A stretch of 64,000 nt of DNA from Bombilactobacillus mellifer (GTDB lineage: Bacteria; Bacillota; Bacilli; Lactobacillales; Lactobacillaceae), in NCBI RefSeq assembly GCF_000970795.1, contig NZ_KQ034028.1, forward strand, positions 837,839 through 901,838. Reading direction: 5' to 3'. Position 1 is the first letter of the stretch, and each line of letters starts with the position of its first letter. The position numbers and the translations under genes were made by a program. This document shows, in pieces, positions 58,573 to 63,687 of the stretch. The notes under the pieces were generated by a model. It did not search any database. It was given only the letters and a program-made list of their open reading frames with translations, and was not told where the DNA came from.

Positions 58573-58608
58573 ACCTGTGTTAACTGTTTGGTTAGCGCAG
58601 GTTTTTTT
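58573..58608 (+). terminator. Terminator after degV
   Basis: ACCTGTGTTAAC pairs with GTTAGCGCAGGT (two G-T pairs), followed by a run of seven T. Confidence 0.85.
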
Positions 58609-58611
58609 ATG

Positions 58612-58641
58612 ACAAATGTCATCATAGTTTATGATATTTGT
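58612..58641. promoter_or_regulatory. Inverted repeat, candidate response-regulator binding site
   Basis: ACAAATGTCAT (58612-58622) and ATGATATTTGT (58631-58641) form an 11-bp inverted repeat with one mismatch, 8 bases apart. It ends 3 bases before the predicted -35 region of the ABC/two-component operon. The position fits an activator site for the LuxR-type regulator encoded in the same operon; this is inference. Confidence 0.55.
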
Positions 58642-58644
58642 GCA

Positions 58645-58673
58645 TTTCCGAAGCCTTACAGGCTCTATATAAT
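58645..58673 (+). promoter_or_regulatory. Promoter of the ABC/two-component operon
   Basis: -10 TATAAT (58668-58673) is perfect; the -35 position (58645-58650, TTTCCG) is poor at 17-base spacing, as expected for an activator-dependent promoter. Confidence 0.6.
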
Positions 58674-59593: not shown

Positions 59594-60316
59594 ATGGCTT
59601 TTGTAACTTTAACTAAAATTAATTTCAAACGTTTGATTTTACGAAACACTCGTTTTTTGATTTTCGATGTGGCTTCGCCGATTTTCTTTTATCTCATTTA
59701 TACACAAATATTTACTGGCGGTCAGCAGTTAAAAGTCAACATTTTTATCAGTATGACGGTTTTTGCTACTTTGTTGAGTTCGATTATCACGGTATCTAAT
59801 AATATAATGAGCGATCGCCAACAACATTTCTTTCGTTTTATGGCTGTAACACCCTTGTCGCAAAAACTCTATTATCTGTCATTATCGTTAGTGTTTATCT
59901 TTTTAAATGTATTGCAAATCTTGGCCATGGAAATCGTGGCTGCATTTGGGACTAAATTGAACTTATCCATGGATAAATATCTGCAAATATTAGTTATTGC
60001 CACAGTGGGTAGTTTTGCGCTAATCTTAATAGGAGCAGCAATAACTTTTTTGGGTAATAGTAGTTTTGTTAATTCAATTGCTTATAGCATCGTCTTCCCC
60101 CTGGCAATTATCAGTGGTTTGTGGACTCCTATGAACCTCATGCCTTCTTGGTTGCAACAAATTGGCAAACTCACTCCTACTTATGCAACCGTTAACCTGA
60201 TTCATAATTTCTTACAAAAGCAACCTTGGTCTTGGAATCTATTTGGCAAGTTAGGCATTTGGTTACTGCTGGCTATGGGTTTATTAATAATTTGTTCACG
60301 AAAGTCAGTTGATTGA
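59594..60316 (+). CDS. ABC-2 type permease
   Basis: A 240-residue membrane protein with six hydrophobic segments of the ABC-2 family. It includes the segment VASPIFFYLIYTQIFTGG, MSDRQQHFFRFMAVTPLSQKLYYLSL (the cytoplasmic coupling region), and FPLAIISGLWTPMNLMPSWLQQIGKLTPT (the typical ABC-2 motif). It is the partner of the preceding ATPase. Its stop overlaps the histidine kinase start by 8 bases. Confidence 0.9.
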   Translation: MAFVTLTKINFKRLILRNTRFLIFDVASPIFFYLIYTQIFTGGQQLKVNIFISMTVFATLLSSIITVSNNIMSDRQQHFFRFMAVTPLSQKLYYLSLSLVFIFLNVLQILAMEIVAAFGTKLNLSMDKYLQILVIATVGSFALILIGAAITFLGNSSFVNSIAYSIVFPLAIISGLWTPMNLMPSWLQQIGKLTPTYATVNLIHNFLQKQPWSWNLFGKLGIWLLLAMGLLIICSRKSVD

Positions 60317-61448
60317 ATTGGATTTTCTTCATAAATACTGTTTGTTTCCACGCGTCTTTGGTTTTAGTCCTTATTTTTGGCTGCTTTGGTTGCTTGTTCC
60401 TATTTGTCAGCTCTGGCCTTGGAATAGTTCTTTCAAATATAGTCAATTATTTTTGATTATTGTTTTTATTTGGTTTTATCGCAGCAGCTATACTTTAAGT
60501 CGGTGGTCACCGTTGTGGATTGGTGGTCAGTATCTATTAGCAATTTATTTTTATTTAAATAATATTGGATTATATTTTTTTGTATTTACTGCCTGGGTGA
60601 TTGGCTCTTTACCATTCAATAAATTTCACTTTCACTGGTATTTAATGATTTACTATATTGCACTATTCATTGCCTTGGCTGGTAAAGTATTCTTAACACA
60701 ATTTCATTGGCCTGCTTCTTCGTCTGCCAGGGCATTTTCGGTTATTTTTATGTTTTTTATTATTTTATCTCCTTTGGGAGGGCGGTCAGTCCGGAATACT
60801 TATTTACGCTCCGGGATTTTAAAACAACAAAAGCAACGATACGAACTTTTAATCCGGCGCCAAGAACGTGATCGAATTGCGCGCGATTTGCATGATAGTT
60901 TGGGACAAGCTTTCACTACTATTACAATACAAGCCGATCTAACTCAAAAAATCTTAACGCAAAATCCTACCGAGGCTAAGAAACAATTAACGGACATTAA
61001 AAAATCTGCACAACAAAATTTAAATTTAGTGCGTCAAATTGTCACAAATATGCGTACTTTGTCATTACCCGAAACTTTAATTAAACTGACTGATAAGTTG
61101 CAGGAATTTAAAGTCTCTTTAATTACAGAAAATGAAAACTTAAGTAAAACTTGGCCGAAAAAAATTCAACAAACCATTGCTGCCGTGATCCAAGAAGCCA
61201 TTACTAATACACTGCAGTACGGTCAAGCCCAAGAAGTTCGTATTAGTTTTTTTGAGGAGCAAGCGCAGGCACGAATTATAATCGTGGACGACGGACAAGG
61301 CTTTGAAAAAATCCATCCAGGCGCACATGGTATTCAAGGTATGCAAGAAAGAGTAGCCAAGTCTTCTGGTACTTTCCAAATATATAGCAGTCATCATGGG
61401 ACAAAAATTGATTTTTCATTGCCTTTATTGGAGGAGTCCGCTTCATGA
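60309..61448 (+). CDS. Sensor histidine kinase, LuxR/NarL-system (HisKA_3) type
   Basis: A 379-residue sensor with six N-terminal membrane segments (residues 20-155) and no obvious extracellular domain, so it probably senses within the membrane or through the transporter. The phosphoacceptor is H195 in RDRIARDLHDSLGQ. The ATPase N box is VIQEAITNTLQYGQA, with the G boxes VDDGQGF and AHGIQGMQERV. The start is TTG 60309 inside the permease 3' end; the SD is weak. The cognate regulator follows with a 4-base overlap. Confidence 0.9.
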   Translation: MIELDFLHKYCLFPRVFGFSPYFWLLWLLVPICQLWPWNSSFKYSQLFLIIVFIWFYRSSYTLSRWSPLWIGGQYLLAIYFYLNNIGLYFFVFTAWVIGSLPFNKFHFHWYLMIYYIALFIALAGKVFLTQFHWPASSSARAFSVIFMFFIILSPLGGRSVRNTYLRSGILKQQKQRYELLIRRQERDRIARDLHDSLGQAFTTITIQADLTQKILTQNPTEAKKQLTDIKKSAQQNLNLVRQIVTNMRTLSLPETLIKLTDKLQEFKVSLITENENLSKTWPKKIQQTIAAVIQEAITNTLQYGQAQEVRISFFEEQAQARIIIVDDGQGFEKIHPGAHGIQGMQERVAKSSGTFQIYSSHHGTKIDFSLPLLEESAS

Positions 61449-62193: not shown

Positions 62194-63687
62194 ATGACAA
62201 AAAACTACATTATGGCCTTGGATGAAGGCACTACAAGTACACGCGCTATTATTTTTGATACTCATATGCAAAAAGTGGCTGAAGATCAGCGGGAATTCAA
62301 TCAGATCTTTCCACACGCCGGTTGGGTTGAACATGACGCCAACGAAATCTGGAATGCTGTTTTAGCCACCATAGGCAATTGCTTTTTGAAATCAGGTATT
62401 CAGCCTGACCAAATTACTGGCATCGGCATTACTAATCAACGTGAAACAACGGTGATTTGGGATCGACAAACGGGTCTACCTATTTATAACGCGATTGTCT
62501 GGCAATCAAGACAATCGGAGGCTATTGCCCAAAAATTACAGACTGCTGGTTGGAGTGCCAAAATTCACCAAAAAACGGGCTTATTAATTGATCCTTATTT
62601 TTCGGCCACCAAAATTCGATGGATTTTAGATCAAGTTCCCCAAGCGCAAACCCGTGCGCAAAAGGGGGAACTTTTATTTGGTACCATTGATTCTTGGTTA
62701 CTATGGAAACTAACCGGTGGGCAAATACATGCCACCGATTATACCAATGCTAGTCGCACCATGCTGTTTAATATTCACACTTTGCAATGGGATGAAGAGA
62801 TTTTAAAGTTATTAAATATCCCGGCGATCATGCTTCCGGAAGTACAACCCAATTCTAAAATCTACGGTTATACTCAGCCGTATAATTTTTATGGTAGTAA
62901 AGTTCCCATTAGCGGTATGGCAGGGGATCAACAAGCCGCACTTTTTGGGCAAATGGCTTGGGAACCCGGAATGGTGAAGAATACCTATGGAACTGGAGCT
63001 TTTGTCGTAATGAATACGGGCTCGGAACTTAAATTATCCGAAAATAATTTGTTAACGACCATTGCTTATGGTTTAGGAGATCAAATTAATTACGCTTTGG
63101 AAGGTAGTATCTACGTCGCTGGTTCAGCCATTCAATGGTTGCGCGATCAGATGCAATTGCTCGATGCAGCACCAGATTCTTACCAAGCCGCCTTGGCCTC
63201 CCACGATGATGATGAAGTCTACGTTGTCCCGGCATTTACCGGTTTAGGGGCACCTTATTGGGACCCACAAGCTCGTGGAGCTGTGTTTGGCTTAACACGG
63301 GGGACCACCAAAAATGATTTCATTAAAGCTACTTTACAAGCTATTGCTTATCAATCGCGGGATGTTATTGATACCATGCAACAAGATACGGGGGTAGCTA
63401 TTCCCACGTTAAAAGTGGACGGCGGTGCAGCCAATAATAATTACCTCTTACAATTTCAAGCCGATATTATCAATACACCCGTTCAACGGGCGGTTAATTT
63501 GGAAACTACCGCGCTGGGAGCTGCTTTCTTGGCGGGATTAGGTGTCGGTTATTGGCAAAATCAACAAGAAATTCAACAATCTGCGGCTGCGGGCCAGATT
63601 TTCCGCCCCCGGATGGAGTCAACGCGCCGAGACAGTTTATATCGTGGCTGGCAAAAAGCCGTAGCAGCTACCCAATTATTTAAATAA
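62194..63687 (+). CDS. glpK: Glycerol kinase
   Basis: Phosphorylates glycerol to glycerol-3-phosphate. The 497-residue FGGY-family protein has the ATP loop [41 protein letters not shown] and [18 protein letters not shown]. In enterococcal-type enzymes a His (H232, in YHFYG) is phosphorylated by HPr; here the position is N231 (YNFYG, codon AAT at 62884-62886). Activation by the PTS is therefore not expected. No glpF or glpO/glpD adjoins. The stop abuts the convergent transporter gene. Confidence 0.96.

Follow-up and report, generated by a model that had tools for sequence, protein, structure and literature searches.

Which DNA element controls the operon for an ABC exporter and a two-component system in Bombilactobacillus mellifer, and which protein binds it? 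The locus lies near the end of the window, by which we mean the whole 64,000-nucleotide stretch analysed here. A preliminary description had drawn an inverted repeat next to the operon promoter and proposed direct activation by the LuxR-type regulator encoded in the same operon. Our sequence comparisons indicate that direct positive autoregulation of the export operon by this regulator is very likely, and that the operator needs to be redrawn.

The operon and its candidate regulator

The operon carries, in order, an ABC ATPase, an ABC-2 permease, a HisKA_3 kinase and a LuxR-type regulator (Table 1). This is the YvfRS-YvfTU-type order, and the closest PDB relatives of the regulator and kinase are DesR and DesK, though Pfam DesK_N has no match in the kinase. 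The five best PDB matches of the kinase are all DesK (YocF) entries, and its first 161 residues contain about five hydrophobic segments. For the regulator, the best PDB match, DesR, is followed by 4zmr and 4hye, both listed as 'Response regulator'. We take these two to be pneumococcal response regulators, and 4hye to be spr1814, presumably the protein known as RR11. Because a Pfam GerE search of the genome yields this regulator alone, no other LuxR-type candidate binder was detected; the other four P0001 matches in the genome are weak and lie mainly over the receiver part.

An intrinsic terminator separates the operon promoter from the upstream DegV-family gene. Directly downstream of the operon, at window positions 62194-63687, is a gene for an FGGY-family carbohydrate kinase that looks glycerol kinase-like by eye.

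Table 1. Features of the operon and its control region (window coordinates; a dot marks features without a strand)
Feature	Position	Strand	Basis or remark
Intrinsic terminator, end of upstream DegV-family gene	58573..58602	+	13 pairs, T-run; DegV family by Pfam
Site 1, perfect palindrome ATGACA-AA-TGTCAT, predicted DesR-type operator box	58609..58622	.	Unique exact ATGACAnnTGTCAT; conserved before orthologous operons
11-bp inverted repeat of the preliminary description	58612..58641	.	Overlaps sites 1 and 2; itself not a conserved unit
Site 2, first half-site ATGATA (5/6 to ATGACA), direct orientation	58631..58636	+	22 bp downstream of site 1 start
Degenerate end of site 2, CAT (ACT in relatives)	58643..58645	+	C in 63/64, T in 64/64 when aligned on second half-site
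-35 position TTTCCG (2/6 to TTGACA)	58645..58650	+	17 bp upstream of -10; read from sequence
-10 element TATAAT	58668..58673	+	59 bp from site 1 start, 37 bp from second half-site
ABC transporter ATP-binding protein, 292 aa	58712..59590	+	Pfam ABC_tran
ABC-2 type permease, 240 aa	59594..60316	+	Pfam ABC2_membrane / ABC2_membrane_3
DesK-type sensor histidine kinase, 379 aa, TTG start	60309..61448	+	HisKA_3 (Pfam); H195 in DLHDSLGQ
LuxR/NarL-type response regulator, DesR/YvfU/RR11 type, 201 aa	61445..62050	+	PDB DesR 4ldz, E 2.3e-54; GerE domain

Redrawing the inverted repeat

The inverted repeat exists as it had been described: two 11-nt arms, 58612-58622 (ACAAATGTCAT) and 58631-58641 (ATGATATTTGT), are 91% complementary with one mismatch and stand 8 nt apart. 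The second arm ends three bases before the -35 position, and the contrast between a poor -35 and a perfect -10 also holds. The boundaries of the dyad were nonetheless wrong. Its first arm is most of a longer palindrome, ATGACA-AA-TGTCAT (site 1), and the real unit is this palindrome together with a direct half-site starting at 58631 (site 2). The 11-bp pairing arises because the second half-site continues as TTTGT in the B. mellifer genome; a TGT just after the second half-site is found in the window alone among 64 related operons.

Could the two arms as drawn nevertheless be the binding site of one regulator dimer? Their complementarity fits such a reading, and a dyad of 10/11 with a spacer of 0-20 is uncommon when the 109 bp that follow the terminator are dinucleotide-shuffled (12/500), which leaves it, taken alone, only moderately unusual. 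Against it, a dyad of at least 10/11 is present in only 3 of the 64 related promoters, the window included, and columns 29-34, into which the inner part of arm 2 falls, have 0.08-0.35 bits, compared with 1-2.3 bits for most columns of the 14-bp box. We consider binding of one dimer across the drawn arms highly improbable, and the dyad was dropped as a conserved unit.

The palindrome matches the DesR-type operator pattern ATGACA-N2-TGTCAT exactly, and the exact sequence ATGACAnnTGTCAT occurs once in the 1,813,987 bases of the genome that were scanned. 6-N2-6 palindromes in general are no rarity, being present in 89 of 2000 shuffles; the significance of site 1 lies in its exact sequence, unique in the genome, and in its conservation, not in palindromicity. 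The genome search that had been suggested as a way to define a regulon found no second exact box in the 1.81-Mb genome. At up to two mismatches the pattern has 75 places per strand versus 62 for the reversed pattern, three of these places having one mismatch, so most of the weaker matches are what chance would give. On these counts further regulon members in the genome are unlikely.

Site 2 lies about two helical turns downstream of site 1. Its first half-site is a 5/6 match at +22 and the remainder is degenerate, giving a score of -1.4 bits against a median of 16.1, the lowest of the 64 operons. The -10 element, at +59, is spaced as in relatives and follows the poor TTTCCG, and the window alone among the 64 has a perfect TATAAT.

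The control module in relatives and beyond

A search of 301 Lactobacillaceae genomes, taking the best regulator match per genome, gave 75 regions (L031-L105) with 46-100% identity. Sixty-eight were usable: no ABC gene was detected in L077, L085, L089, L100, L103 and L104, and the ABC start was wrong in L081. The module analysis (n = 64) also leaves out L064, L065, L069 and L105, where the box is absent or doubtful; the ABC match of L069 is truncated.

The ABC-permease-kinase-regulator order is kept in relatives. A box with at most one mismatch precedes 61 of the 68 orthologous operons, window included, versus 19 of 13,600 shuffles, a control that treats the operons as unrelated even though the 68 relatives share ancestry and are not independent. 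In the 260 bp preceding the ABC gene, the best box match has no mismatch in 19 operons, one in 42, two in 4 and three to five in 3. The orthologous operons of L064 and L065 (G089 and G058, of one genus) have no convincing box near the ABC gene, and the box of L105 has three mismatches at best. Conservation in relatives, which the preliminary description had made a test of its dyad, thus came out divided: the operator is kept, and the dyad as drawn is kept only at the palindrome and the second half-site.

Downstream of the box, the second half-site and promoter are conserved as well. A half-site matching ATGACA in at least 5/6 positions stands at +22 to +25 in 59 of the 64 operons, in 58 of them at +22 or +23. 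Half-site and -10 shift jointly, being at (+23, +60) in 34 operons and at (+22, +59) in 25, and therefore site 2 is locked 37 bp from the -10, with one base of play between sites 1 and 2. The CT that lies 13-14 bases past the second half-site is near invariant; the window is the sole exception in lacking its C. At spacers of 16-18, the best -35 match reaches at most 3/6 in 63 of the 64 operons. From sequence, this architecture, with a locked site 2 and no real -35, has the look of a promoter that requires an activator.

The same layout might instead suggest a repressor operator, at which promoter access is blocked by the regulator or by some other protein: site 2 coincides with the -35 position, so that protein bound to it could obstruct polymerase, and the perfect -10 of the window could fire alone. 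The poor -35 matches across the operons fit an activated promoter better, DesR-P induces des (PMC7726353), and, in the portion of PMC11034029 available to us, overexpression of the pneumococcal RR11 raises its own operon. We regard repression as very unlikely.

The box extends beyond these operons. The regulator alignment led to 80 named loci; a box lies upstream in 73 of them, and box, second half-site and -10 occur together in 68; half-site and -10 coincide at 122 of 16,000 random positions, the control for these loci. Because 52 of the 58 loci that have no clear ABC match still have the box, it goes with the DesR-type regulator and not with the transporter. It accompanies such regulators in Lactobacillaceae, Bacillaceae and Paenibacillaceae, and two different target genes are found behind it. 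At one of the 80 loci, a des-desK-desR locus of Bacillus halotolerans where the kinase has DesK_N, the same layout precedes a fatty-acid desaturase gene. A scan of 50 genomes with RTGACAWWTGTCAY gave at least one match in 30 of 30 genomes with an ortholog and in 5 of the 20 that lack one. In one of these five, a paralogous regulator whose recognition helix is nearly identical lies next to the box, and in the other four the box occurs only inside open frames. For G284 and G297 the scan match is not at the operon, whose box has two mismatches.

This association bears on whether an unrelated regulator might bind the palindrome, or the palindrome might belong to an RNA element. A terminator hairpin does lie in the same intergenic region, and an Rfam match to atoC RNA overlaps it at 21.5 bits. 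The gathering score of that family is 50, however, and no Rfam family reached its gathering score; the box, moreover, tracks DesR-type regulators in three families, and the five boxes in genomes lacking the ortholog stand beside a paralogous regulator or only inside open frames. An unrelated binder or an RNA element is scarcely credible. A riboswitch or other RNA element was set aside, no Rfam match coming near its gathering score.

Other copies of the box were seen in related genomes. In G284 and G297, exact boxes (L203:3001-3014 and L204:3001-3014) lie outside open frames of at least 90 codons, near ORFs whose starts resemble, by eye, sugar phosphotransferase-system proteins. In three congeners (G008, G105 and G047), the same box stands by a second LuxR-type two-component system (L106:3900-3913, L107:3195-3208 and L205:3001-3014). 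The regulator of this second system in L106 shows 36% identity; the recognition helix reads GTVRNYIS in L106 and GTVRNLIS in L107, and L205 agrees with the L106 pair at 73% and 59%. The second system has a divergent ABC gene, behind which L106 and L107 encode two large membrane proteins. In G008 and G047 the two systems may cross-regulate each other. L199:3001-3321 and the matching part of L198 (G108 and G081) contain another complete module, with a box, GTGACA at +23 and TATACT at +60. The gene behind it is a 66-aa ORF with a hydrophobic stretch, by eye, in its C-terminal half and no Pfam match over the cut-off; it is possibly a further regulon member.

Proposed control and known systems

We are confident, on the strength of these comparisons, in reading 58609-58645 as a DesR-type operator from which the regulator would activate its own ABC exporter-kinase-regulator operon at a promoter that has no usable -35. 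Direct activation by the operon's own regulator, as originally proposed, is favoured by the DesR homology, the single GerE protein and the conserved box. Positive autoregulation of the export system draws support by analogy from the pneumococcal counterpart, for which the accessible part of PMC11034029 gives RNA-seq measurements.

In the mechanism we propose, a phosphorylated dimer of the regulator would bind the palindrome, and a second dimer would probably join it at the degenerate direct half-sites, which lie 22 bp, or about two helical turns, downstream. Site 2 would thereby place protein next to a promoter with a -10 and no usable -35, where the bound regulator could substitute for the -35 contact and recruit RNA polymerase. 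ABC exporter, DesK-type kinase and regulator would then be co-induced in response to a membrane or cold-type stimulus perceived by the kinase. The predicted outcome is an operon of the YvfRS-YvfTU type (pneumococcal TCS11 type) that is positively autoregulated.

Given its weak site 2 and perfect -10, the B. mellifer promoter likely allows some expression independent of the activator. The combination of the weakest site 2 with the sole perfect TATAAT suggests partial relief from activator dependence, in a single case that may be chance. No trade-off between site-2 strength and -10 strength was seen across the 64 operons (Spearman -0.14, p 0.26), and the decay of site 2 in the window is therefore a single case. 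One can go further, tentatively and with the odds somewhat against it, to a joint reading in which this promoter has slid to leaky, partly constitutive expression, with the palindrome tuning and not gating it, and in which the -35-less module is common to NarL-type regulators with several outputs. These regulators would have nearly the same GTVRN recognition helix, and the outputs would comprise a desaturase, ABC exporters of two kinds and a small membrane-anchored protein, the last of these in two genomes.

These results assign a precise predicted operator to a transporter operon found in many lactobacilli, and they extend the DesR motif, described for Bacillus and pneumococcus, to most of the Lactobacillaceae operons examined. 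An operator this uniform lends itself to reporter assays aimed at the signal and the substrate. The principle is already published: a membrane-sensing two-component switch on its own transporter operon is a known type, and the lactobacillus example is new. Among the titles listed for DesR and Lactobacillus, none concerns an operator of this kind in lactobacilli. In the portions available, PMC7788899, a study of cold shock in three species of lactic acid bacteria, notes that they have no homologue of DesK-DesR; PMC7090030 contains nothing relevant; and the streptococcal papers PMC11502775 and PMC7105139 give no operator for the DesR-type regulator family.

The LnrJK-LnrLMN system of B. subtilis is a LuxR-type two-component system adjoining an ABC-2 exporter. 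A similar-looking system with the same box is present in the congeners represented by L106 and L107 and absent from the window genome, which has one GerE protein. The accessible part of PMC7472640, on LnrJK, contains no operator information.

The B. subtilis DesK-DesR system, with its des promoter, is among the nearest known counterparts. The B. halotolerans homologue of DesR and the window regulator are 51% identical, and the promoters share ATGACA-N2-TGTCAT and a -10 at nearly equal distance, with a downstream repeat that is degenerate in the window. The DesR target, however, is a lipid desaturase, whereas the window target is an ABC exporter with kinase and regulator in the same operon. Homologous kinases are activated by cold or membrane order (PMC7726353). 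B. subtilis YvfRS-YvfTU and its S. aureus and Bacillus counterparts are described in the same paper; unlike them, the window combines a degenerate site 2 with a consensus -10.

Streptococcus pneumoniae TCS11 (RR11, HK11), with its ABC operon, resembles the window in motif and, as far as the available part of PMC11034029 describes it, is positively autoregulated. There the RR11 motif is [ATGACATTTGTCAT]-N7-[AGTGACA], which resembles the DesR motif; the authors state that their candidate motifs still need biochemical validation. The pneumococcal operon differs in having two further hypothetical genes, and this ABC/TCS operon is reported there as the sole specific target of TCS11.
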